DNA of 64,000 nt from a bacterium (GTDB lineage Bacteria; UBA8248): contig JAJEJD010000008.1 in NCBI GenBank assembly GCA_022828125.1, forward strand, positions 248,001 to 312,000, given 5' to 3'. The notes under the pieces are model-generated. The model ran no database searches. It saw only the letters and a program-made list of their open reading frames with translations, and was not told where the DNA came from. The translations under genes were made by a program, and so were the position numbers. This document shows positions 7,403-57,393 of the stretch, piece after piece. Each line of letters opens with the position of its first letter. Within the stretch, counting starts at the first letter, position 1.

Positions 7403-7596
7403 TTGTCTCTCTCCTCGGGTCTTTTGTACTCATCCTGCGAACTCCACGGCCTCGCGTTCCATGGCCCGCAATCCTGACTATAACACTATCCCCTTTCGCG
7501 CTCCCCCGCAAGATTCGGCTCTTCGCGCGACTCAAGGCCTAACCGCCACCTGGAGAGATTCCCAAAACAGATGATGGTCAGAGAACCATCAAGCAA

Positions 7597-7625
7597 CAAA
7601 AAACCCCCATCCCGGAGGACGGGGG
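7597..7625 (-). terminator. Rho-independent terminator of the second microprotein gene
   Basis: A 9-bp stem (cccccatcc / ggacggggg, one G-U pair on the minus strand) with a CGGA loop, then six T on the minus strand. It is nearly identical to the hairpin at 7134-7162, so the duplicated unit includes the terminator. Confidence 0.82.
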
Positions 7626-7650
7626 CGGAGTAGCCGACGGGAAGTAGAGG

Positions 7651-7932
7651 TTACTTCCCTGTCCGCTCGATGAGCGTCTTGAGTGCGGTCATCGACTCCT
7701 CATGTTTTTTCATGTTTTCCTCATGATTTTTCATGGTCTCTTCGTGCCGCCTCGCCCCCTCCCTCATGACTTCCTCGTGCCGTCTTGCGCTCTCTCTTTC
7801 CCTGAGCTCCGAGGCGCGCTCCATCTGTCTCAAGCCCTTCCATATCAGGAGACACTGAACGCTTCCTACACCGAGAGCTATTGCGCTCTGAATGCCCAAT
7901 GCCACCAGCGTCGCGATTTGAAAAGTCGTCAC
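7651..7932 (-). CDS. Membrane-anchored coiled-coil microprotein (long paralogue)
   Basis: A 93-residue paralogue of the 7187-7402 protein, unknown function. A GTG start at 7932 is preceded by AAGGAGGAA, and both copies share the VTTFQIATL start. The hydrophobic N-terminus (3-32) is followed by a charged helix in which the H-E-E-x-M unit occurs four times (HEEVM, HEETM, HEENM, HEESM) against two in the short copy. Both end with almost the same TAL-TLIERT-K tail. The frame is open further upstream to 8052, but that extension is not shared with the paralogue and I exclude it. Confidence 0.75.
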   Translation of the reverse strand: MTTFQIATLVALGIQSAIALGVGSVQCLLIWKGLRQMERASELRERESARRHEEVMREGARRHEETMKNHEENMKKHEESMTALKTLIERTGK

Positions 7933-8067
7933 TTCCTTCCTCCTTGCGAGTCCACCAACAAAAAATCGAACAACCTCGTGGACCCAGAGCGCCCTGCCCT
8001 GCGTTGCTCGCTTTCCCAGAAAAATACTAATCTCTTTCGCGCTCGACCGCAAGATTCGGGTTTGTGA

Positions 8068-9102
8068 TCAGGGTTTGAGCACAACTTTCAGTGATTCGCC
8101 CGCCTCGGCGACGAGGCGGAAGCCCTCTTGCGCCTTTGCGAGCGGGAGCCTGTGGGTGATCATACCCTCGACATCGATGCGGCCGACGCGTATGAGCGCG
8201 AGCGCTTCTTCCAGATCGAGCGGGGCTGCGCCGTAGGTGGTGGTGACGGCGATCTGCTCGCTCCAGATGCGGTTCAGGTCCATCTCGGGGCGATGACCCG
8301 GCGGCGTGGGAGCGAAAAGCTGCAAGACGCCGCAGGTCGCGACGCACGCGAGGGCCGTCTCAAGAGCTTCGGGCGCCCCCGCGCACAGGACGACGCGGTC
8401 CGCCAGGCGGCCCTCGTTCGCCTCACGCAAGGCCTCGGCCATATTTTCGCACGGGGAAAGCGCGCGCGCCCCGAACCGCTCGGCGGCCTTGAGGCGCCAG
8501 GGATGGATATCCGCCGCGAAGACGGCTCCCGCTCCCAGGAGGCGCGCCGCCTGCACGTGCAGCAGTCCCGACATACCGCTTCCCACCACGAGGACGGAGA
8601 GGCCCGGCGTCATACGAAAACGCCGCCAGCCGCGCAGGACGCAGCCCAATGGCTCGACGAAAACGCCCGCATCGTCGGACACCGCATCGGGCAGGCGGAA
8701 CGTCCCCCGTTCCACGTTGACGGCGGGCAGACGGATGAACTCGGCGAAACCGCCCGGGTCGAAATTTGTAGCTTTCAGCATCTCACAAGCCGTGTGGTCG
8801 CCGCGCAGGCAGAGTGCGCAGCGGTTACAGGGCACGTGATGGGTGACGCAGACGCGATCGCCTGCGCGGAAGCCCTCCACCCCCTCGCCGGCTTCTACCA
8901 CGACGCCCGTCACCTCGTGGCCCAGAACGCGCGGCGCGCTCCTGACACGGTACCACTCCATGACGTCGCTGCCGCAGATGCCGCTTGCGCGCGTCTCGAC
9001 CAAAAGCTCGCCCGCTCCGGCGCGGGGCTTTTCCACTTCTTCGATCCGCACGTCGTCGTTTCGGTAATACACCGCCGCTCGCATGATTTCCGCCATGTTC
9101 AT
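8068..9102 (-). CDS. Zinc-dependent medium-chain alcohol/polyol dehydrogenase
   Basis: NAD(P)-dependent oxidation of a secondary alcohol or polyol; 344 residues, the family's usual length. Catalytic zinc ligands are Cys43 and the GHE motif at 61-63. The structural zinc site is complete (Cys92, 95, 98, 106 in CNRCALCLRGDHTAC). The Rossmann glycine motif (VVGSGMSGLLH) lies near 172. It resembles sorbitol/threonine dehydrogenase and galactitol dehydrogenase types; the exact substrate is not visible. ATG codons at 9102 and 9096 both fit the GGAAG ribosome site. It lies 28 bp downstream of the aldolase gene, likely in one operon, suggesting a sugar-alcohol or keto-sugar substrate. Confidence 0.92.
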   Translation of the reverse strand: MNMAEIMRAAVYYRNDDVRIEEVEKPRAGAGELLVETRASGICGSDVMEWYRVRSAPRVLGHEVTGVVVEAGEGVEGFRAGDRVCVTHHVPCNRCALCLRGDHTACEMLKATNFDPGGFAEFIRLPAVNVERGTFRLPDAVSDDAGVFVEPLGCVLRGWRRFRMTPGLSVLVVGSGMSGLLHVQAARLLGAGAVFAADIHPWRLKAAERFGARALSPCENMAEALREANEGRLADRVVLCAGAPEALETALACVATCGVLQLFAPTPPGHRPEMDLNRIWSEQIAVTTTYGAAPLDLEEALALIRVGRIDVEGMITHRLPLAKAQEGFRLVAEAGESLKVVLKP

Positions 9103-9130: not shown

Positions 9131-10018
9131 TCATACACGGGCTTCCGCGCTCAAATCCTCGAACATCTCATAGGCCGCATCGGGGCTTAAGTCTTCATGC
9201 ACGACGGCGCGCACCGCCCGGATCATGGCGACCGGATGCTGGCTCTGGAAAATGTTGCGGCCCATGTCCACGCCCGCGGCGCCCTCGTCAATCGCCCGGC
9301 GGCAGAACGCGAGCGCCTCGCGCTCGGGAATCTTCTTGCCGCCCGCGATGACGATGGGCGCGAAACAACCGCGCACCACCCGCTCGAACCCCTCGCAGTA
9401 ATACGTCTTCACGACGTCCGCCCCGTGCTCGGCCGCGATGCGCGTCGCAAGACCCAAGTAGCGCGCGTCGCGCGTCATCTCCTTGCCCACCGCCGTGATG
9501 CCCAGAACGATCAGGCCCTCCCGGCGGCCCTCATCGCTCATGCGCGCCAAGTTCAGGATGGATTCTTTCTGGTAGCGCGCGCCCACGTAGACCGAAACCG
9601 ATACGCCCGCCACGCCCAGGAGCGCCGCCTCCGCCGCCGAGACGGTGATGGCCTCGTTCGAGAGCTCTCGGTTCACGATATCATCGGCGATCTGTTCTCT
9701 CAGCGCCTCGCGCGCCTCCTCATCCTCCATCCCCGCCGCCCGGATGCTGAGTTCGCGCTCGAGTTCCACGGGATCCGAATAGACGATGGCGTTTCCGCCC
9801 GAAGCCCTGAGGATTACGGGCGTCTTGCTATCCGGCGGCATGCAACGCAGGAAGACGCCCTTCGTGGGACTCACCGCGTCGCACCAGGGCAAAAGGGGTT
9901 TCATGGTCTTCGCGGGCTCTTCCAACCCCGAGGTAGGCCCCTGGAAATAGCCGTGGTCCACCGCCAGCATGACGATGCGCCCCGTCTTCTCGTTCATGAT
10001 TTTCATATGGCTAGACAT
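9131..10018 (-). CDS. LsrF/DhnA-like class I aldolase
   Basis: A TIM-barrel Schiff-base enzyme of the DeoC/FbaB superfamily, 295 residues. It resembles LsrF, the thiolase of autoinducer-2 breakdown (VMLAVDHGYFQGPTSGLE near the N-terminus, MGRNIFQSQHPVAM near the C-terminus, TYYCEGFERVV in the middle). The start at 10018 has GAGGA about 5 nt upstream; the frame is open further but that extension is unlike the family. About 35 residues (roughly 83-120, rich in Glu/Arg) appear to be inserted before the SNEA motif relative to LsrF as I recall it. No other lsr gene is nearby, so an AI-2 role is doubtful. The neighbouring dehydrogenase suggests a sugar pathway. Confidence 0.88.
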   Translation of the reverse strand: MSSHMKIMNEKTGRIVMLAVDHGYFQGPTSGLEEPAKTMKPLLPWCDAVSPTKGVFLRCMPPDSKTPVILRASGGNAIVYSDPVELERELSIRAAGMEDEEAREALREQIADDIVNRELSNEAITVSAAEAALLGVAGVSVSVYVGARYQKESILNLARMSDEGRREGLIVLGITAVGKEMTRDARYLGLATRIAAEHGADVVKTYYCEGFERVVRGCFAPIVIAGGKKIPEREALAFCRRAIDEGAAGVDMGRNIFQSQHPVAMIRAVRAVVHEDLSPDAAYEMFEDLSAEARV

Positions 10019-10101
10019 TTTCCTCATTCTCCGGCAGTAGCCCGGGGCGAGCCGCGTTGGGGAGCACGCAGGAGACGAGAATGGCCTCACGAGCAAACAT
10101 T

Positions 10102-11082
10102 CTATGAATTCTCCGGCGGGAGCGGCGGGCCGCCCTTGTAGAAGACGCGCGCCATCACGTGGTTTCTGGCCGTGAACTCCTCATCTCCGGTGTCCTCGGC
10201 CACCGCGCGCTTCAGGATGTTGAACTTCGCGTCCATGTCGTCCGCGTAGTGGAGCAGGAGCGCCTCCGCCGACATGGGCACCTTCACCGTGCCCCAGTCG
10301 GGCTGTCCCTGATGCGAGAGGATGAGGTGTTCGAGATGCAGCAGAAAATCATCCGGCAGCGCGTCTCCTTCTGCGAACACGCCCTCGCGACCCGCCCACT
10401 CGCGAGCGATGTCTCGCCCCAACACGATGTGGCCGAGGAGGCGGCCGGCAGGCGTGTAGTGCGTCGCCCCCTCAGTGGAGAGTTCCTCCAGCTTTCCGAT
10501 GTCGTGCAAGAGCGCGCCCGCGACGAGCAGGTCTTTCGAGACGTCGTATTTATCCGCGAGATACAGACACGTTTTCGTGACCGAAAGAGTGTGCTCCAGC
10601 AGGCCGCCGAGATAGGGATGGTGAATGCGCTGGGCGGCGGGCCACTCGCGGAATTTCTCCTCGTAGGCGTCCAGGATGGCGGTGAGATAGGCGGCCACGA
10701 GCGGGTGGCAGCCGCCCGCGATGCGCTTCGCCTCCTCCCACATGACGTCGATGTCATAGGGCGTCCGCTGCACGCAGTCCTCGGGCTTGAAGCCGCTCTC
10801 GTAATCCTGCTCGTTCACCCGGCGGACGCGCTCCACCCGGAGCTGCATTCGGCCCTGGTAGTTCTCCGCCATGGCGCGCACCTTGATGAAATCGCCCGCC
10901 CCGATTTCGCCCTGCACCTGCGTCGCGGGTTCCCAGACCTTGGCGGGAACCTCGCCCGTGGCGTCCTCCAGGGTCAAATCGAGATACGCCCGGCCCGCGC
11001 GGCTCTGGCGCGCCTCGTATTCGCGGATCTTGAAGAAAGCGTCGAACCGCTCGCCCTCTTTCAGCGTCGCTACGTCGGCCAC
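10102..11082 (-). CDS. OB-fold/HD-domain protein, YhaM-like 3'-5' exonuclease
   Basis: Probable 3'-5' exoribonuclease or phosphohydrolase, 326 residues. An N-terminal OB nucleic-acid-binding domain (about 8-90: DLTLEDATGEVPAKVW) precedes an HD metal-dependent domain with GLLEH (164) and LLHDIGK (His193-Asp194). A third metal-ligand region, HLILSHQGQPDWGT, lies downstream. This order is that of YhaM/CBF1 of Firmicutes, which trims RNA and single-stranded DNA. Its start is at the divergent end of the three-gene minus-strand group; about 80 bp separates it from the aldolase. Confidence 0.88.
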   Translation of the reverse strand: MADVATLKEGERFDAFFKIREYEARQSRAGRAYLDLTLEDATGEVPAKVWEPATQVQGEIGAGDFIKVRAMAENYQGRMQLRVERVRRVNEQDYESGFKPEDCVQRTPYDIDVMWEEAKRIAGGCHPLVAAYLTAILDAYEEKFREWPAAQRIHHPYLGGLLEHTLSVTKTCLYLADKYDVSKDLLVAGALLHDIGKLEELSTEGATHYTPAGRLLGHIVLGRDIAREWAGREGVFAEGDALPDDFLLHLEHLILSHQGQPDWGTVKVPMSAEALLLHYADDMDAKFNILKRAVAEDTGDEEFTARNHVMARVFYKGGPPLPPENS

Positions 11083-11735
11083 GAACCTGCGCTCCCAAAC
11101 GAATTACGAACCTGTCCGGCGATATGAATCACGCAAACCCTCCTTTCTCAGTCGGGTTTGACATTGTAGGGGCAAGGAGGGGTGAGCCGCAATGAAGAGG
11201 GCTTTCATAAGGGCGGGCAGGGCCGAGGACCTGTAGGGACAGGTCGCGACCTGTCCCTACCGTGGGTTCCTTCTCAGCCTTAAATTCACGGTATCGTCAT
11301 TCCGGCAATCAATACCGACCGAGGAGGGAGGGATTGCCCGGAATCCATTTTGACTTTTCACCGGGCGGGGCGGCCACGACCTTGTTGTTGCGCGGCGTCC
11401 GGATGCGGAATTCAGAGAATTCGCTTTTCGTTTTTGTGTTCGATTCCGATCCTCCCCGCCCGGGAGTAAAGACGTCCGAACGAGGAGGTGAAAAGGCAAA
11501 GGCGAAAATGGATTCCGTCGAACCCTCCCGCCTTGGTCGGCTTCGACACCGGAATGACGGCGGTGTGGTTCGTCTCGACCGATGAGGGAAGTTTTCCAGC
11601 GGACGAGGTAAACATCGGCGCGCCATTCCTCCCCACCCGGTCGGAATTTGTCCCCCAAAGGCGCATCGCCCCGCTCCCTGTGCTATAAAGAAGCACCGGA
11701 GAAAATTTTTATCCTGATACTCATGGAGAAGACGC
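11083..11735. other. 653-bp gene-free interval
   Basis: No credible gene. Short open frames on both strands overlap one another and lack ribosome sites. It holds a perfect 28-bp palindrome at 11233-11260 (listed separately). A run of short imperfect repeats rich in GGGAGG and GGAATGACGG between 11300 and 11640 looks like decayed sequence. The promoter of the amidohydrolase gene should lie in the last 100 bp but has no clear boxes. Confidence 0.5.
11233..11260. repeat. REP-like perfect palindrome
   Basis: A perfect 28-bp inverted repeat, 14 bp per arm (gtagggacaggtcg and its complement), no loop. No T run follows, so it is not a simple terminator. A related but shorter palindrome with the same GTAGGG-C core (complement strand) is at 29820-29846. 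Confidence 0.8.
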
Positions 11736-12422
11736 ATGGCCATCCTCAAGGCGCGGCCCCGGGAGGTGGAGATCGACCTGTCCCGAACCGCTTTCATCGT
11801 GGTCGACATGCAGAACGCTTATGCGAAGAAGGGCGGAATGCTCGATTTGGGAACGGGCATCGACGAGGCCCGCACGAACCCCGTCATCGCGGCCCATCAG
11901 CGCCTGCTCGCTGCGGCGCGCGCGGCGGGCGTGAAGGTCATCTATCTCCAGTTCGGCTACAAGCCCGACTTGAGCGACGCGGGCGGGCCGCAATCGCCCA
12001 ACGTCCGCAAGCACATGGCGTTCAAGATGATCGAAGAGCGCCCTGCGGACCGCGACAAGCTCATCATCGAGGGAACGTGGGGGTGGGAGATCATCGACGA
12101 GCTCAAACCCGAACCGGACGACCTGGTGGTGAAGAAGGCCCGCTACAGCGGCTTCGCGGGAACGACGCTGGAAAACCAGTTGAACGGCCTCGACATCCGG
12201 CACATCCTCTTCACCGGCGTGGCCACGAACGTCTGCGTGGAGAGCACGGCGCGCGAGGCGTATTTCCGCGAATTCTGGCCCATCCTCGTCGAAGACGCGA
12301 TGGATCACACCGGCCCTGACTTCACCCGCGAGGCGACGCTCTACAACTTCGAATCGAAATTCGGCTGGATAACGCAAACCGACGACGTGCTGGACATGCT
12401 GGAGCGCAACCAGGCCTCGTAG
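11736..12422 (+). CDS. Cysteine amidohydrolase, isochorismatase superfamily, RutB-like
   Basis: Hydrolyses an amide such as ureidoacrylate or a carbamate; 228 residues. The catalytic triad is visible as Asp24 (VVDMQNAY), Lys133/134 (VKKARYSGF) and Cys167 (TNVCVEST). The stretches GGPQSPN and KARYSGF and the C-terminal FGWITQTDDV align well with RutB of pyrimidine breakdown. No other rut gene is nearby, so the substrate is open. ATG at 11736 follows GGAGA by about 7 nt. It is monocistronic; the symporter genes start 318 bp downstream. Confidence 0.9.
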   Translation: MAILKARPREVEIDLSRTAFIVVDMQNAYAKKGGMLDLGTGIDEARTNPVIAAHQRLLAAARAAGVKVIYLQFGYKPDLSDAGGPQSPNVRKHMAFKMIEERPADRDKLIIEGTWGWEIIDELKPEPDDLVVKKARYSGFAGTTLENQLNGLDIRHILFTGVATNVCVESTAREAYFREFWPILVEDAMDHTGPDFTREATLYNFESKFGWITQTDDVLDMLERNQAS

Positions 12423-31256: not shown

Positions 31257-32045
31257 CTATGCGCCGCCGGCCTCTATCTCTCCTTTGGGCGCGCCGCCGC
31301 CGCTCGGCGCATCCACGAAGGGCTTGAGCAGGTCGAGCGGCAAGGGGAAGACGATGGTCGAGTTGTTCTCGGTGGCGACTTCCGAGAGCGTCTGCAGGAA
31401 GCGGAGCTGGAGCGCGCCCGGGGCCGTGGCGATGGTGGCGGCGGCCTCGGAGAGCCGCTCGCTCGCCTGGTATTCGCCCTCGGCGTGGATGACCTTGGCG
31501 CGGCGCTCGCGCTCGGCCTCGGCCTGGCGGGCGATGGCGCGCTGCATCTCGCCGGGAAGGTCCACGTGCTTGAGCTCCACGTTGGTGACCTTGATGCCCC
31601 AGGGGTCGGTGGCGTGGTCGAGGAGCTCCTGGAGCTGGGTGTTGATCTTCTCGCGCTCCGAGAGCAGATCGTCGAGCTCCATCTGGCCGAGCACGCTCCG
31701 GAGCGTCGTCTGGCTCAACTGGCCCGTGGCGTAGAGGAAATCCTCCACCTCGATGACGGCGCGCTCGGGCGTCAGCACGCGGAAGTAGACCACGGCGTTC
31801 ACCTTCACCGACACGTTGTCCTTCGTGACGATATCCTGCGGGGGCACGTCCATCGTCACCAGCCGCAGGCCCACGCGGGTCATGCGGTCGATCACCGGAA
31901 GCACGATGATGAGGCCGGGCCCTTTCGTGGAATGGAAGCGCCCCAGCCGGAAGATGACGCCGCGCTCGTATTCGTTCAGCACGCGGATGGCGCTCGCCAG
32001 GAACAGCAAGATGATGATGGCGGCGATTATCAAACTCCAATTCAT
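31257..32045 (-). CDS. SPFH/stomatin-like membrane protease regulator (slipin)
   Basis: A 262-residue protein with an N-terminal membrane hairpin (4-20) and a Band-7/SPFH domain ([29 protein letters not shown]), then a helical oligomerisation region ([21 protein letters not shown]). Slipins form membrane rings and pair with NfeD-type proteases. Its ATG directly follows the stop of the upstream NfeD gene (TAA ATG), so the two are coupled. Likely role: membrane quality control and lipid-domain organisation. Confidence 0.94.
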
Positions 32046-33374
32046 TTATCCACCCTCCTTCTCGACGCGGAGCCTGAGGCCCTCCACAGAGACCACGCGG
32101 ACTTTGTCCCCGACTTCCAGGGGTTCGCCTGAGTCCGCCATCCATATCTCGCCGTGCACCCGGACCTGGGCCGGCGACCCCTCCCCGGATAATGCGCTCA
32201 CGACGCCGGACTGGTCGAGCATTCCCTCAGAACCCGAAACAGGCCGCGTCCGCTGGGCGCGAAAGCCCATCCCCACGAGCCAGACGAAGAAAAAGGCCGT
32301 TCCGGCGACCGCGGGCAGGATCACCTTCAGGCTGATTTGCAGGTAGGGGTCCGGCGAATCGATGAGCATGACCGAGCCGAGCGTCATGGCGATGATTCCG
32401 CCGATGGTCAGACCCCCGTAGCTGACCACCTGGATCTCCAGCAGAAACATGATGACGGCAAGTCCCATCAGGAGAAGCCCCACGTAGTTCACCGGCATGA
32501 CCTTGAGGGCATAGAGCGCCAGGAGCAGGCTGATGGCCCCCACCACGCCGGGCAGTATGGAGCCGGGATTCGAAAGCTCGAAGAACAGCCCGTACATCCC
32601 CAGGAGCATCAGGATGTAGGCGATGTTGGGGTCGCTCAAAAGGGTGAGCACTTTCTGGCGCCAGCTTCGCTCGAGCACGATTTGCGCGGCGCCCCTGGTC
32701 GAGAGGGTGACGGTGTCGCCGCTCGCGAGTTTTATCTTTTTCCCGTCAACCGCCAGCAGCAGCGACCGCACGTCCGCCGCCACCAGGTCGATGACCTTTT
32801 GCTTCAGGGCTTCGGCCTCATCCACGGATATCGCCTCGCGGACCGCGCTCTCCGCCCACTCGGTATTGCGTCCGGTGCGAGAAGCCACCGCCCGCGCGAA
32901 TGCGGCCACGTCGTTCATCGCCTTCTTGCGCATATCGCCCTGAATCTGCTTCCCCCCGCCCGAAACGGGGGAGGCGGCGCCGATGTTCGTGCCCGGCGCC
33001 ATGGCGGCGATGTGGGCCGACATGGTGATGAACGTGCCGGCGGAGGCGGCCCGCGCGCCCCCCGGAGCGACGTATACCGCCACGGGAACGCTCGCGCCGA
33101 AAATCGCCTTCACGATATCGCGCGTGCTGGTCACCAGACCGCCGGGGGTATCGAGGCGAATGACGAGAAGCTGCGCCCCCCTCCTGGCAGCCTCCTCGAT
33201 ACCGAATGCGATGTACTCGGAAGTGCCCGGCGATATGGCGTCGGCCACGTCCAGCACCAAGACGGGAGGCGTCTTCTGCGCGGCGGTGGCATGGTAGAGC
33301 GTCAGCATCGCTCCGGCCGTCACCAGAGTGAGCAGAACCGCCAAATGAATTCGTTTGTAGAGCTTCCTTCGCAT
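32046..33374 (-). CDS. nfeD: NfeD-family membrane serine protease (long form)
   Basis: A 442-residue membrane protein. A signal segment is followed by a ClpP-like serine-protease domain with RLDTPGGL, the nucleophile Ser in AASAGTFI, and the Lys base candidate in MRKKAMND. Then come four to five membrane segments (about 225-350) and a C-terminal OB-fold NfeD domain (about 385-442, VHGEIWMADSGEPLEVGDKVRVV). This is the full-length STOPP form that cleaves the tail of partner slipins. ATG at 33374 has GAGG 6 nt upstream; a longer open frame is less likely. Confidence 0.94.
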   Translation of the reverse strand: MRRKLYKRIHLAVLLTLVTAGAMLTLYHATAAQKTPPVLVLDVADAISPGTSEYIAFGIEEAARRGAQLLVIRLDTPGGLVTSTRDIVKAIFGASVPVAVYVAPGGARAASAGTFITMSAHIAAMAPGTNIGAASPVSGGGKQIQGDMRKKAMNDVAAFARAVASRTGRNTEWAESAVREAISVDEAEALKQKVIDLVAADVRSLLLAVDGKKIKLASGDTVTLSTRGAAQIVLERSWRQKVLTLLSDPNIAYILMLLGMYGLFFELSNPGSILPGVVGAISLLLALYALKVMPVNYVGLLLMGLAVIMFLLEIQVVSYGGLTIGGIIAMTLGSVMLIDSPDPYLQISLKVILPAVAGTAFFFVWLVGMGFRAQRTRPVSGSEGMLDQSGVVSALSGEGSPAQVRVHGEIWMADSGEPLEVGDKVRVVSVEGLRLRVEKEGG

Positions 33375-33455
33375 CCCATACCTCAAAAGCGGCTGGAACA
33401 TTGGGCGCATCTTAACACAAAGTGGTACGTTGGTATCGCCCTCTGCCCCAAGCCG

Positions 33456-38903: not shown

Positions 38904-39536
38904 TTAACTTTTGCCGCCCATTGCGCGCTTCGGGGCCTGCTTCGTAAGCCAGCGGGTGCGCACCCACATTTTTTTTCCAGACCAGCGCCCCGATCTGACC
39001 TCCACTTGCGTGAAACCACGTCGGTCACCGGAAACAACAGCTACGCGTGTTCCCGGTTTGAGTCTGTAGCGATAACGGGAGCCGCGCGGCTCATCATAGC
39101 CTCCGGCATAACTCAGCGAGAACCCCCGATATGTACGGCGGATGTATCTGGTACCCACATACGTTTCGCTTTGATTGGCAGGTTTTACAGCGGATTCTTT
39201 TTTGCGCTCCGGCTTTGGAAAAACCACCGACGCCTTAGGCTTCGCCTTCAATTCCTTCACCGTTTTCTCAACATTCGATACCGTATCTCGAAGCTGCAAT
39301 TTGAACTCGTTCAATGACTTCCCATGATTCGCCAAAATTTGCGTGTGCGCGAGAAGTTGGCCGCGGATCGACTCGACTTCTTTTTTCCCTTGCGCTTGAT
39401 CCTCCTGGTAGTCGGCTTGCAACACCACCAGGCTGCAACCGGAAAGCACCGCCATCAAACCGCCGATAAACATCATGCGAAATGCAAGAAGCTTTACACC
39501 CGGTGATTTGATTTTCCGCTCAGGCACCCAGTTCAT
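38904..39536 (-). CDS. SH3-like lipoprotein
   Basis: A 210-residue envelope protein. A lipobox (LSGC) ends a hydrophobic segment, so it is likely lipid-anchored. A coiled-coil-like region (about 55-95, GQLLAHTQILANHGKSLNEFKLQL) follows. The C-terminal part (about 125-205: GTRVAVVSGDRRGFTQVEV, GKKMWVRTRWL) resembles a bacterial SH3 cell-wall-binding domain. Its start overlaps the stop of the kinase-like gene in ATGA. It is the last gene of the envelope run. Confidence 0.8.
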   Translation of the reverse strand: MNWVPERKIKSPGVKLLAFRMMFIGGLMAVLSGCSLVVLQADYQEDQAQGKKEVESIRGQLLAHTQILANHGKSLNEFKLQLRDTVSNVEKTVKELKAKPKASVVFPKPERKKESAVKPANQSETYVGTRYIRRTYRGFSLSYAGGYDEPRGSRYRYRLKPGTRVAVVSGDRRGFTQVEVRSGRWSGKKMWVRTRWLTKQAPKRAMGGKS

Positions 39537-40366
39537 ACCGGATACCATCCTTCGATAGGCGGCATCACGACCAATTCGCTACTCAACTCGACGACCCCAT
39601 CGTATTCTCTGGCAATGGATTCGGCCAATTCTTTTTCTTCATCGCTGTTGACGCGCCCGTGCAAGAATAGTTCTCCCGGCCCGAGACACTCTACGACAAT
39701 GCCACTCGCATCGATTCGCTCATCCGTCATGATTGTTGCTTTGATCTTTTGCGCAAAAGCCAGATTCTGGAGCTTTTGAGATTCCGATGGTTCGAATTGG
39801 GAAAAATTTTCACTTTTCAATATGTTCACCAGCAAACGCACTGACATATCCTCACTGAACAACCCGGTGTTCAATATGATATCGAAGTGACTTGGCTCTC
39901 CCCACCTGACATCGAAAAAATGTCGCGTATAGGCCATTCTTTCATCATCGTTGTGACGTATGAACTGCTCCGCCATGGATGGGGTAATCCCCTCGTTCTT
40001 CACCAGTGTCCGTTGGCGATAATCTCTAGGCGCCACGATGCGGGCCCGGAAAACGCCCTCGATTCCCTCAAGGAGGATATGGGAGCCGCGGCCCAATATG
40101 ACGAAATTATTTTTCAAGGCCGATTCATAAACGATGGCGCGCATGATATCGAGGTACACGAGTTGCCTGTCCCGGAAAAAGCGGTCTATCAGACCGGGCT
40201 TCCTCTCATCCACTTGTTCGAGTTCGGCTCGAACATAACCATATGTTTGGGCCGCATCCGCAAATCCGTCGTTATCCAAAAGGGCCCATCCCAACTCTTG
40301 AGCCACTTTCTTCCCAATAGCGTCACCACCGCTTCCAAGCTCTCTCGAAATTGTCAGGATACCCAT
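39533..40366 (-). CDS. Cytidylate-kinase-like protein with C-terminal BON domain
   Basis: A 277-residue protein from ATG 40366 (GGAGGG upstream). The N-terminal two-thirds are a cytidylate-kinase-like P-loop fold (TISRELGSGGDAIGKKVA, VILGRGSHILL, IVAPRDYRQR). The Walker-type loop is SGGDAIG rather than GxxGxGKS, as in the 'cytidylate kinase-like' family whose substrate is unknown. The last 85 residues (about 190-277, LHGRVNSDEEKELAESIAREYDGV) form a BON domain, which binds envelope structures or phospholipids. It lies between the bactofilin-TPR gene and the lipoprotein. Confidence 0.85.
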   Translation of the reverse strand: MGILTISRELGSGGDAIGKKVAQELGWALLDNDGFADAAQTYGYVRAELEQVDERKPGLIDRFFRDRQLVYLDIMRAIVYESALKNNFVILGRGSHILLEGIEGVFRARIVAPRDYRQRTLVKNEGITPSMAEQFIRHNDDERMAYTRHFFDVRWGEPSHFDIILNTGLFSEDMSVRLLVNILKSENFSQFEPSESQKLQNLAFAQKIKATIMTDERIDASGIVVECLGPGELFLHGRVNSDEEKELAESIAREYDGVVELSSELVVMPPIEGWYPV

Positions 40367-40559
40367 TTCACAGCCCTCCAAACTAAGAGTGGCGACTACT
40401 AACCAACCAGATGGGGCGAATCACTCCTTACAACTCTTTCATATCATTTGTTTCCAACCATCTTATCCAACAAGCTTTCTCATGGTCGAACAAGTGCTTG
40501 GTTGCTCAACCCCATGAAGGTGCGGCGAGTATGAATATTTATCCGATCGTATTCGGGCA

Positions 40560-42302
40560 TCATTTGCGGCTCGCTCTTTTGAATTTTTCCAATTGCAGAC
40601 GAAAATAGCGATTTCCGGGGTCTAATTCAATCGCTCTTTGAATGAGCGGAAGCGCTTTCACCGATTCTCCGTTGCGAAAAAATAACTCCGCCAGTGTATC
40701 GAGATACGCCGGCGTATCGGGCTGGAGTTCCAGCGAGCGCTTCGAAAGCTTGATCGCGTGTACCAAACTTTCCTTATCCTTCCTGTGAAACCACGCCAAC
40801 CGATTCATCGCCGGCGCTGAATTCTTATCTATCTCCAGCACTTGCATGAACACCTTCTTCGATTCTTCAGGCTTCCCGGTTTCCCAAAGGAAAATGCCAA
40901 GCTCCACTAAAACGCGAGACGAACGGGGATTTTTCTCCAATAAATCCAGAAGTATTTTATGAGCGATTTTTTTCCGCTTCCTCGACTTGTGAAGATTGGC
41001 GATGCGAATTTTCATCTCGATGTTGTTCAAGTCCAGTTGGCCCGCTTTTTCATAAAGCGCGATCGCATCCTTATCTCGACCCTTGGATGCCAAAAGAGCG
41101 CCCAAACGTATATATCCATCCAGCCAATCGGGCGATAAAGAAACAACTTTCTCATAAGCGCGTATTGCTTCGTCCCTGCGGTTCATTTGAACTAGGGCGG
41201 CGCCCAACAAGAAATGGAACCTCACATTATCCGGTGTTTTTTCGATGGCGCCTCTGAGCAAGTCTACAGCCCTCGCCGGTTCTTTTCCGGATATGAAGCG
41301 CTCTGCATTGATTAAAACCTGGGTCGGGTCCAAAACCTCTTGCGCAGGCTCGGCCGATTCGGGCCGTACTGCTCTGACACGCGACTCAACAATCTGAAGC
41401 CGTCTTTTCAGAACAATGTCCTCGGGTTCACGAAGATAAGCCTCTCTGTATATTTCCAGCGCTTTTGAGAGTTGCCCACTGCGAACATACAAATCGCCAA
41501 GCAAGATCATTCCCTCGATATGCCTCGGAGTGCGTTGGAGCAAAGATTGAATTTCACGTATGGCCTCCGCCGTATGATTTTGCTGCGCCAGAATTTTCGC
41601 CAAGCGGTACCTGGTCACACTCTGGCGGCTTCCCTTGAACTTCAAAGCTTTTCTCAGACTGGCTACAGCCTTATCGAATTCTCCTTTACTTTCGTGCCGA
41701 GCCGCTTCTGCAATGTATCTTCTCTGTTGTTCTTCGAGCTTAAGTTTCAGGTTTTTCGACTGGCCGGACTCCAGCCATTCACCTACTCTCGCTTCCCAAA
41801 TCGCGTCGAGGCGTTTCCAGATATTGCGCAAGTAATCCGGAGATTCGCGAGAAATCGCCGTGGTGGCAACACCAGCGGCCAGAAACAGCACCAAGCCCGC
41901 CGCAATTTGCAGACGCCTTTTCGAAACTATCGCCTTGGGCGCCGGCGTCGGGACAACATCAGGCATGATCATTCTGCCCTCGAACTTCGCCTCCGGATCT
42001 ATATGTATTTTGGGAGCTGTCACATTCCCTTCGTGAGAGCATCCGGCCTTGAGTTCAACACGATCCGCCACAAATATAGAACCTTTGGTACGGCCGTGAT
42101 TCACTAATTCGCCCGTATAGATCTCGCCCTCGGCTTTTCCCGCCTCCGCAATCTCGAGATGCCCGTCGCCATGGAGTTCTCCTTTGAACTCGCCTTCCAT
42201 CAAAACTTTCCCTGCAAACCGCAGTGAGCCTTCCAAGCGCACATTCGCACCTATGAAAGAGAGATTCGACCGGGGCCTGGCATAGAGTCGTTGCTGTTGC
42301 AC
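40560..42302 (-). CDS. Bactofilin-transmembrane-TPR fusion protein
   Basis: A 580-residue protein. Residues about 10-115 form a bactofilin-type beta-helix (FIGANVRLEGSLRFAGKVLMEGEFKGEL, HGDGHLEIAEAGKAEGEIYTGELVNHGRTKGSI). A single membrane segment follows (about 132-150, LQIAAGLVLFLAAGVATTAI). The rest (about 185-575) is a solenoid of roughly ten TPR units. Bactofilins are small cytoskeletal polymers; a fusion to a membrane helix and TPR scaffold is unusual. The topology places the bactofilin part in the cytoplasm and the TPRs in the periplasm if the helix is a signal anchor. It follows kdsA by 265 bp. Confidence 0.85.
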   Translation of the reverse strand: MQQQRLYARPRSNLSFIGANVRLEGSLRFAGKVLMEGEFKGELHGDGHLEIAEAGKAEGEIYTGELVNHGRTKGSIFVADRVELKAGCSHEGNVTAPKIHIDPEAKFEGRMIMPDVVPTPAPKAIVSKRRLQIAAGLVLFLAAGVATTAISRESPDYLRNIWKRLDAIWEARVGEWLESGQSKNLKLKLEEQQRRYIAEAARHESKGEFDKAVASLRKALKFKGSRQSVTRYRLAKILAQQNHTAEAIREIQSLLQRTPRHIEGMILLGDLYVRSGQLSKALEIYREAYLREPEDIVLKRRLQIVESRVRAVRPESAEPAQEVLDPTQVLINAERFISGKEPARAVDLLRGAIEKTPDNVRFHFLLGAALVQMNRRDEAIRAYEKVVSLSPDWLDGYIRLGALLASKGRDKDAIALYEKAGQLDLNNIEMKIRIANLHKSRKRKKIAHKILLDLLEKNPRSSRVLVELGIFLWETGKPEESKKVFMQVLEIDKNSAPAMNRLAWFHRKDKESLVHAIKLSKRSLELQPDTPAYLDTLAELFFRNGESVKALPLIQRAIELDPGNRYFRLQLEKFKRASRK

Positions 42303-42567: not shown

Positions 42568-43398
42568 TTATTGTGCGCCGAGACGTGCAGAATCTATTGC
42601 GTGCAAAGAGATGAGAAGAGAATGGAGGTCCTCGATATCCATCATGTTTGGGCCATCGGATAATGCCTCATCCGGCCTTGGGTGACATTCGATAAAAAAT
42701 GCGTCGACGCCCACGGCAGCGGCGGCCCGAGAGAGATGAGGAACCATGCTCCTATCCCCTCCCGAACTTTCACCGAGTCCACCCGGCGACTGAACACTGT
42801 GCGTCGCATCGAAAACGACAGGATATCCCGATTCGCGCATCTTCACGAGCGAACGCATGTCCGAAACCAGGTTGTTGTAGCCGAAGCTGGTTCCCCTTTC
42901 GGTAAGAAGTATTTGCCGGCAATCCACTTCCTCAAGCTTTCCCACGACGTTTTTCATGTCCTCGGGAGCCATGAACTGCCCTTTTTTGACATTCACGGGC
43001 TTCCCGGTTCTTCCCGCGGCATGCAGGAGGTCCGTCTGGCGGCATAAGAAAGCGGGAATTTGAAGCGCGTCCAGTACATGTGCTGCGCTTTCGGCTTCTT
43101 CGGAGCTATGAACGTCCGACATCACCGGAAGTCCTGTCTCGCGTCTTACCATATCGAGTATTTTCAAACCCTTCTCGATGCCGGGTCCGCGCGGTGATTT
43201 TCCTGAACTGCGATTCGCTTTGTCATAAGAAGCCTTAAAAACTCCACCAATACCGCATTTTTCAGTCGCTTCCCTTACTTTTTCAGCACATTTTCTGGTT
43301 AATTCTTCACTTTCAATCACACAAGGCCCTGCGATGACGCATATCGCTCCCTGCTCTCCGAAGGCGACATCACCAATTCTTACTATTTTTTCCGCCAT
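42568..43398 (-). CDS. kdsA: 3-deoxy-8-phosphooctulonate synthase (KDO8P synthase)
   Basis: Condenses PEP with arabinose 5-phosphate, first committed step of KDO synthesis. It has 276 residues. Family motifs are [22 protein letters not shown], the metal-associated HSVQSPGG and the C-terminal [14 protein letters not shown]. It lies 49 bp downstream of pyrG and is part of the KDO/polysaccharide run. Confidence 0.95.
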
Positions 43399-43447: not shown

Positions 43448-45870
<2,423 letters not shown>

Positions 45871-45891
45871 TCTCTCCACCCATGACGCCGT

Positions 45892-55508: not shown

Positions 55509-56414
55509 ATGGCGCGCAAGGCAACGAAAAAAATCGCATTTCTAGGCTTGGGCCGAATGGGCGGGCTTATGGCGAAGCACCAGGTCGACGCCGGTTTCCC
55601 GGTCACGGGCTACGATCCCTCAGCGAAAGCCATCGCTACTGCAAAGAAAAACGGCGCCAAAACCGCCAGAACCGTCGCAGCGGCGGTGAAGGGCGCAGAC
55701 GTGGTGTGCAGTTCGCTCCCCTCGCCCGCCGTTGTGAGGGACGTCTACCTCGGCCCCAGGGGCGTGCTCGAGACCGCGCGGCGCGGCGTCGTCTGCTTTG
55801 AGCTTTCGACGAGCACCGTCAGCCTGGCGAAGGAGATCGCGGAGGCGGCGAAGAAAAAGGGAATCGCTTTTCTGGACGCTCCCGTCAGCGGAAGCATTCC
55901 CCACCTGGAGCGCAAGGAAGTCGCCGCCATCGTGGGTGGAGACCAGGCCGCTCTCAAGGAAAACCGCGACGTGCTCGACGCCTTCAGCAAGTCCATCACC
56001 TATATGGGGAAATCCGGCAACGGGCTGATCATGAAACTGGTGACGAACCACATCCTGAACATCCACCACTCCGGCATGGCCGAGGGCCTGGCGTTCGGGA
56101 TGAAAGCGGGGCTGACGGCTCCCAAAATGATGAAATTCCTTCAGGGCAGCGTGATTCCCCTGTTGATACATTACAAGGGCACGACGATGGCGGCGCGCGA
56201 TTATTCCGACGTCATCGCGAACCTGGGCATCAGCTTCAAGGACTTGGGGCTCAGCATCAACGAGGCGAACGATTTGGGCGCCCCCGTCCCCCTGGGCGCC
56301 GCCGCGCGCCAGCAATACACCTCCGCCATGGCGCTCGGCCTCGAAGATGCGGATTTCAACGCGGTATTCGAGTCGTTCCTGAACGCCATGGGAACGAGGC
56401 CGAAGAGAAAGTGA
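55509..56414 (+). CDS. Beta-hydroxyacid dehydrogenase, copy 1
   Basis: NAD(P)-dependent dehydrogenase of the 3-hydroxyisobutyrate/tartronate semialdehyde family, 301 residues. GLGRMG (13-18), substrate motif LDAPVSGS (about 120-127) and the catalytic Lys in MKLVTNH (about 176) are present. It starts 9 bp after the LigI-like gene, so it is coupled with the catabolic operon. It is closely similar to the next gene. Confidence 0.93.
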   Translation: MARKATKKIAFLGLGRMGGLMAKHQVDAGFPVTGYDPSAKAIATAKKNGAKTARTVAAAVKGADVVCSSLPSPAVVRDVYLGPRGVLETARRGVVCFELSTSTVSLAKEIAEAAKKKGIAFLDAPVSGSIPHLERKEVAAIVGGDQAALKENRDVLDAFSKSITYMGKSGNGLIMKLVTNHILNIHHSGMAEGLAFGMKAGLTAPKMMKFLQGSVIPLLIHYKGTTMAARDYSDVIANLGISFKDLGLSINEANDLGAPVPLGAAARQQYTSAMALGLEDADFNAVFESFLNAMGTRPKRK

Positions 56415-56487
56415 ATCTTATCGAGGCATCAGAAACGCCCGGATAGACGGTGTGCAACGGCGCATACGATTTCAGGAGTCTGAAGTT

Positions 56488-57393
56488 ATGGCGCGCAAGG
56501 CGACGAAAAAAATCGCGTTCCTGGGTCTGGGCCGCATGGGCGGGCTGATGGCGAAGCATCTGGTCGACGCGGGCTTCGACGTCACGGGCTACGACCCTGT
56601 GTCTCAGGCCACAGCAGCGGCGAAGAAAAACGGCGTCAAAATCGCCAGGAGCGTCGCAATGGCCGTAAAGGGGGCAGACGTGGTGTGCAGTTCGCTCCCC
56701 AAAACCGACATCGTGAGAGACGCCTACCTGGGCAAAGGCGGCGCGCTCAAGGCCATGCGGCGCGGCGCGGTATGCTTCGAGCTTTCGACGAGCAGCGTCG
56801 CACTGGCGAAGGAGATCGCCGCAGAAGCCAAAAAGAAGAGAATCGCTTTTCTGGACGCTCCCGTGCTCGGAAGCGTTCCGCACCTGGAGCAAAAGGGAGT
56901 CTCCGCCATCGTGGGCGGAGACGAGTCTGCTCTCAAGGAACACCGCGACGTGCTCGAAGCCTTCAGCAAGTCGGTCACTTACATGGGGAAATCGGGAAAC
57001 GGCCTGCTCATGAAACTGGTGTCGAACCACATCGTCTTCATCCAGCACGCCGGCATGGCCGAGGGACTCGCATTCGGGGTGAAAGCGGGGCTCACGGCCC
57101 GGAAAATGATGAAATTCCTGCAAGAGAGCGTGATTCCGGACCTGATGCACTACAAAGGCCCGGAGATGGCGGCGCGCGATTATTCCAAAGTCATCGGAAA
57201 CCTGGGGCTAAGCTACAAGGACATGGGAATCAGCATGAACGAAGCGAACGATCTGGGCGTTCCCGTTCCCATTGGCGCCGCCGCGCGGCAGCAGCATACC
57301 TCCGCCATGGCGCTCGGTTTCGAACACGCGGACTTGAACGCCGTCTTCGAGGCTTTCCTGAACGCCGCGGGAATGAAGCCGCAGAGAAAATAA
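56488..57393 (+). CDS. Beta-hydroxyacid dehydrogenase, copy 2
   Basis: A 301-residue close paralogue of copy 1 (identical start MARKATKKIAFLGLGRMGGLMAKH). It has GLGRMG, but the substrate motif is LDAPVLGS, with Leu replacing Ser, and the catalytic Lys is in MKLVSNH. The change in the substrate loop suggests a different substrate or reduced activity. ATG at 56488 follows AGGAG; an upstream in-frame ATG at 56452 is less likely. Confidence 0.92.
   Translation: MARKATKKIAFLGLGRMGGLMAKHLVDAGFDVTGYDPVSQATAAAKKNGVKIARSVAMAVKGADVVCSSLPKTDIVRDAYLGKGGALKAMRRGAVCFELSTSSVALAKEIAAEAKKKRIAFLDAPVLGSVPHLEQKGVSAIVGGDESALKEHRDVLEAFSKSVTYMGKSGNGLLMKLVSNHIVFIQHAGMAEGLAFGVKAGLTARKMMKFLQESVIPDLMHYKGPEMAARDYSKVIGNLGLSYKDMGISMNEANDLGVPVPIGAAARQQHTSAMALGFEHADLNAVFEAFLNAAGMKPQRK

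Follow-up and report, generated by a model that had tools for sequence, protein, structure and literature searches.

A bactofilin fused to a predicted transmembrane helix and a TPR array in a conserved bacterial locus

We find a bactofilin that is joined, within a single gene, to a transmembrane (TM) helix and an array of TPRs. The gene lies in a 64,000-nucleotide stretch of a MAG, which we call the window. It is followed by genes for a Cytidylate_kin2-like protein with a BON domain (CK-BON) and for a lipoprotein with an SH3-like domain. The fusion is a variant on known bactofilins. We found no description of a bactofilin–TPR fusion in the open-access literature that we searched, the coverage of which excluded most subscription journals and bioRxiv; the preliminary description of this DNA likewise knew of no account of such a three-gene set. 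The domain architecture itself will be listed in protein databases. The three genes are present as the preliminary description gave them, while its interpretation of them is partly supported. The reading is refined in three respects: the kinase-like protein is predicted to be cytoplasmic, the trio is the remnant of a five-gene locus, and the fusion is widespread.

Domains and predicted topology of the fusion

The fusion gene (40560..42302, minus strand) encodes 580 amino acids from a GTG start; its orthologues mostly begin at the same residue, with ATG. The bactofilin domain (residues 15–111; 41970..42260, minus strand) is matched by PF04519 with an E value of 1.2e-20 and 74 bits, against a cut-off of 27.9. 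TPR Pfam families match the same frame, with E values down to 6e-36. Hydropathy and charge place a single TM helix at residues 133–151 (41850..41906, minus strand), K/R-rich toward the bactofilin. An AF2 model (ten orthologues; mean pLDDT 82) predicts β strands over residues 14–108, with block pLDDT mostly 84–95, as in a β-helix, and a low-confidence helix at 128–148, the TM position. It also predicts 22 helices over residues 185–579 (40566..41750, minus strand), or about 11 TPRs. The earlier reading of the gene, as a bactofilin linked through a membrane helix to about ten TPRs, is thus upheld. Note that the pTM of 0.43 leaves the placement of the bactofilin relative to the TPR part unpredicted.

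Nearly all of the 24 fusions that we compared have one TM helix and a net positive charge on its N-terminal side. This positive-inside bias, together with the signal-peptide-like start of a homologous TPR array that has no bactofilin (genome G009, below), points to a cytoplasmic bactofilin and a periplasmic TPR array, which fits the membrane-spanning arrangement proposed before. LbcA was among the matches when the TPR part was used in a structure search (4e-11), although TPR matches are generic.

The fusion shares with canonical bactofilins (BacA/BacM/CcmA) a predicted β-helical domain of the polymerising kind, which scores over the Pfam cut-off, and a predicted cytoplasmic face. However, canonical bactofilins are short (open frames mostly 120–230 aa), without a TM helix, and bound to the membrane by an N-terminal peptide, whereas in the 580-aa fusion the same chain continues through a TM helix into about 11 TPRs. 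Among surveyed bactofilins, about 3.2% have a TM segment, which is at the N-terminus (PMC12448750). The genome of the window also has a separate, canonical bactofilin gene directly after parA and parB (L153, G000:C12:4000-9500, 2192-2632).

The locus and its variation within the phylum

Our phylum sample consisted of 18 genomes from one family and six genera. Relatives have been deposited as Nitrospinota (including isolate UBA8248), as Candidatus Tectomicrobia, or simply as bacterium. In our reading, this is a small phylum of UBA8248/Nitrospinota-type MAGs, several members of which come from sponges or groundwater, going by isolate names. The trio lies on the minus strand, downstream of kdsB (CMP-KDO synthetase; 45040..45879), pyrG (CTP synthase; 43448..45061), and kdsA (KDO-8-P synthase; 42568..43398, PF00793), all on the same strand. 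The first two were assigned from their ORFs and synteny; kdsB is present in 16 of the 18 genomes, and kdsA precedes the fusion in every genus whose contig extends that far. Across genera, the order runs from glycosyltransferases through kdsB, pyrG, kdsA, the fusion, CK-BON and the SH3 lipoprotein, and then to a convergent Cys/Met enzyme, threonine synthase and MFS gene.

Conservation of the trio, which the preliminary description had left to be checked, is high: CK-BON occurs in 17/18 genomes, the SH3 lipoprotein in 16/18, and the fusion in 15/18 (with a contig break inside one of the 15). Purifying selection acts on each of the genes, the within-genus dN/dS being 0.13–0.16 for the fusion, 0.03–0.07 for CK-BON and 0.21–0.48 for the SH3 lipoprotein. 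Misassembly of the fusion is ruled out by its intact state in 14 genomes of the phylum; conservation of the block across genera and purifying selection on all three genes lead to the same conclusion.

CK-BON (39533..40366, minus strand; 277 aa) combines matches to PF13189 (Cytidylate_kin2; E = 4.5e-35, 121.9 bits against a cut-off of 28) and PF04972 (BON; E = 5.7e-10, 39.8 bits against 27) in one gene, as previously noted. The start is probably the ATG at 40366, common to 12 relatives, rather than a TTG at 40381. No signal peptide was found on CK-BON, which opens straight into the kinase fold and is predicted to be cytoplasmic. By sequence, CK-BON is not the envelope protein that the preliminary description took it for. 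Its P-loop is degenerate: the Walker-A motif GxxGxGK[ST] is absent, the segment reading ISRELGSGGD against IDGPAGSGKST in the CMP kinase of the same genome. Because SGGD replaces SGKS, CK-BON should not be named a CMP kinase. The Walker-A lysine is likewise missing in PDB 3fdi. An alignment of distant CK-BON proteins contained no conserved stretch. Other Cytidylate_kin2 proteins (PDB 3fdi, 3hdt) and Cytidylate_kin2-BON fusions belong to the same Pfam family, but CK-BON differs from them in being tied to a bactofilin–TPR locus. Two Cytidylate_kin2-BON genes were also seen in an unrelated family (G037: L018, L025), the L018 copy near a trehalose-phosphate-synthase-like gene. A second Cytidylate_kin2 paralogue, of 190 aa and without BON or the Walker-A lysine, is found near a dnaN-like gene (L192:3464-4036, G000:C5).

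The last gene (38904..39536, minus strand) encodes a 210-aa lipoprotein, described earlier as having a coiled coil and an SH3-like domain; AF2 and Foldseek are in line with this, if weakly so for the SH3-like part. Its lipobox, LSGC, matches [LVI][ASTG][GA]C, and the GC is invariant in 13 orthologues, predicting lipidation. The orthologue alignment also contains a WVRTRWL motif. No Pfam family matched the lipoprotein. Its model has a long helix (residues 40–96) followed by a C-terminal SH3-like barrel (local pLDDT 82–87), for which nearly all of the best Foldseek matches were SH3 domains (probability 1.00, with a weak E value of 0.007). The reported ATGA overlap with CK-BON is real (ATG 39536-39534, TGA 39535-39533) and is kept within the genus; the fusion lies upstream across 193 bp.

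Most other genera have two more lipoprotein genes. One, between kdsA and the fusion, encodes a protein of 460–470 aa (P0007/P0008). It had no significant match in Pfam, NCBIfam or PDB, and we have left off an LpoB/CsgG-like name. No match to it was found genome-wide in genus g1, which includes the window. The other is an unannotated lipoprotein of 52–67 aa (..LTLLSGCTTMRKTMDSMIESRK..) within the gap between the fusion and CK-BON (40367..40559 in the window), its end often overlapping the CK-BON start (L112:9414-9608, L115:1413-1607, L082:4650-4844, L084:11493-11651, L113:5316-5519). Gap length is nearly constant across genera (182–193 bp). An RNA or regulatory element in this constant-length gap was set aside in favor of the mini-lipoprotein ORF of the other genera. 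Intergenic alignment and an ORF scan of 15 genomes found no comparable ORF in the g1 gap, where the gene has probably decayed; in two genomes of genus g3 (L116, L118), a stop lies inside the signal sequence. Since g1 lacks both genes, the trio of the window is a trimmed five-gene locus, with one lipoprotein neighbor rather than the three of most other genera. As a set, then, the trio is conserved, but it is not the whole of the locus.

A TPR protein separate from its bactofilin in close relatives, which the preliminary description had named as a sign of misassembly, occurs once. The genome concerned is G009, of 2.2 Mb, whose TPR array stays at the locus but opens with a signal-peptide-like segment instead of the bactofilin and TM helix. 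No bactofilin was detected in this genome, and the Cys/Met gene directly follows CK-BON, without the SH3 lipoprotein. This arrangement is a derived one. Given the signal-like start and the lack of a bactofilin, the TPRs would do their work in the periplasm and be separable from the filament.

Fusions outside the phylum

The fusion is not peculiar to the trio. Requiring a bactofilin match over the cut-off, one TM helix and TPRs in one ORF, we found it in at least nine GTDB families. In a second phylum, probably Nitrospinota, which has cultured members, 44 of the 60 sampled genomes carry it (E = 1e-40 or better, a few matches being partial), and in the inspected loci its neighbors are rph and a gene for a Na/Ca exchanger. 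The fusion also occurs in another five GTDB families (G269, G410, G144, G135, G261). A C-terminal cap, NRLAW...DTL.E...Y..QL.KF, is common to the fusions, with one instance of NRIAW and one of R for Q.

When bactofilin domains are placed in a tree, a branch with 96/97 support separates the fusions from canonical bactofilins; the latter come mostly from the same genomes and were taken as top PF04519 hits, a choice that may favor this separation. Support for this branch was 99/98 when the divergent group of the window was removed. With long branches dropped, a single fusion clade gave a p-AU of 0.64. A single origin of all fusions is supported in one tree; without the long branches, the data are compatible with it but do not demonstrate it.

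Outside the phylum, the fusion does not keep these neighbors. In G144, from a different GTDB family, the fusion (L184:8363-10162) is followed by the gene for a coiled-coil, YbgF/CpoB-like TPR lipoprotein (7451-8293). The likeness to CpoB/YbgF-type proteins, here and in the window, is that of a coiled-coil lipoprotein beside a fusion; however, the lipoprotein of the window is predicted to finish with an SH3-like barrel, whereas CpoB/YbgF end in TPRs.

A proposed periplasmic arm and competing readings

The ways in which cytoplasmic bactofilin filaments influence the periplasm are understood in part, and the known cases are weak contacts with client tails. BacA recruits bitopic LmdC (KD about 15 uM) and PbpC via their cytoplasmic tails (PMC10945521, PMC12448750). 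We lean, though not strongly, toward reading the fusion as a bactofilin filament with a built-in periplasmic docking arm that positions envelope proteins. The bactofilin domains would polymerise as a cytoplasmic filament at the membrane, one TM helix would take each subunit across, and the filament would display the 11-repeat TPR superhelices as an ordered row in the periplasm. There, the arm would capture periplasmic or outer membrane–anchored partners, probably the lipoproteins encoded alongside, which are its natural first candidate ligands. CK-BON, in the cytoplasm, would probably act as a sensor or regulator bound to the filament or the inner leaflet. In favor of this reading are the domains and the model, the single TM helix with its charge bias, the separable TPR array of G009, and the lipoprotein genes beside the fusion in this phylum and in G144; LbcA, with its 11 periplasmic TPRs, is a precedent for what such an array can do. 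Filament formation, partner identity, and any LPS/KDO or peptidoglycan role are what we infer here; fusion neighbors are not kept outside the phylum, and thus the partners that we name may be wrong. If filament and periplasmic arm are indeed one polypeptide, they offer a direct handle, with the binding partners of the arm as targets, and the conserved locus is a defined place to seek them.

As with BacA–LmdC and BacA–PbpC, a bactofilin would position a bitopic protein that reaches into the periplasm, but those are two chains in weak cytoplasmic contact, whereas the fusion is one covalent chain with no M23 or PBP domain. Against the docking arm, G009 does without the bactofilin and the SH3 lipoprotein, and the TPR matches lack specificity. 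In a bolder version, an ancient, widespread, paralogous bactofilin–TM–TPR subfamily would covalently join the filament to a periplasmic array, and in this phylum the array and three outer-membrane lipoproteins would form a trans-envelope structure directing LPS-type glycolipid assembly sites; this strikes us as a long shot.

The preliminary description also tied the trio to KDO and polysaccharide genes. The fusion and lipoproteins could organise lipid A–KDO synthesis or Lpt export at defined sites, with CK-BON handling CMP from CMP-KDO use, but we consider this unlikely. The evidence for a link is one of synteny: the order from kdsB to the SH3 lipoprotein, extra lipoprotein included, is kept across genera. 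However, pyrG-kdsA is a common housekeeping neighborhood, so the location of the trio may be incidental. In G011, a homologue of the extra lipoprotein lies directly upstream of lptD (PF04453, 5.6e-17), about 190 bp away on the same strand (L101:7878-9284 and 9477-11831), which is suggestive of an LPS link. This near-complete genome lacks kdsB and the trio, but we rejected their co-loss: pyrG is missing too, which indicates an assembly gap. In the second phylum, the fusion lies by rph, and no KDO gene was recognised beside it in the loci inspected outside the phylum. That CK-BON is a CMP-recycling kinase for CMP-KDO is improbable, given its missing Walker-A lysine and the presence of a true, canonical CMP kinase in the genome.

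Control of peptidoglycan hydrolases seems more doubtful still. Here, the TPR arm would be an inner-membrane, filament-anchored counterpart of LbcA/NlpI, gathering endopeptidases or their protease. In favor of this view, wall-binding proteins often carry SH3-type domains; so does speak the resemblance of the TPR part to LbcA, an 11-TPR periplasmic lipoprotein that forms a spiral and serves as a substrate adaptor, delivering substrate to its partner enzyme (PMC8764530). Bactofilins have, moreover, been tied repeatedly to M23 peptidases (PMC10945521). Yet LbcA (PA4667) and NlpI, for all their TPR arrays and, in LbcA, the same repeat number and compartment, are lipoproteins without a cytoskeletal domain; the fusion locus has no gene for a CtpA-type or other protease or for a peptidoglycan hydrolase, and the TPR similarity is unspecific. 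Finally, three unrelated genes might simply sit in a stable order, with the fusion acting elsewhere. The order of the flanking genes (Cys/Met enzyme, threonine synthase, MFS) is kept just as well, which makes order alone weak evidence, and about 185 bp separate the fusion from CK-BON. However, the lipoprotein genes either overlap CK-BON or lie directly against it, the adjoining genes mostly encode envelope lipoproteins, and G009 is without both the bactofilin and the SH3 lipoprotein; we hold mere chance to be very improbable.

Elsewhere in the window, a slipin/stomatin-like ORF adjoins an NfeD-like ORF (31257-33410, minus strand), a known pair. Two adjacent, closely similar ORFs with MARKATKKIAFLGLGRMGG at 55509-57393 are 3-hydroxyacid dehydrogenase–like and apparently represent a tandem duplication.
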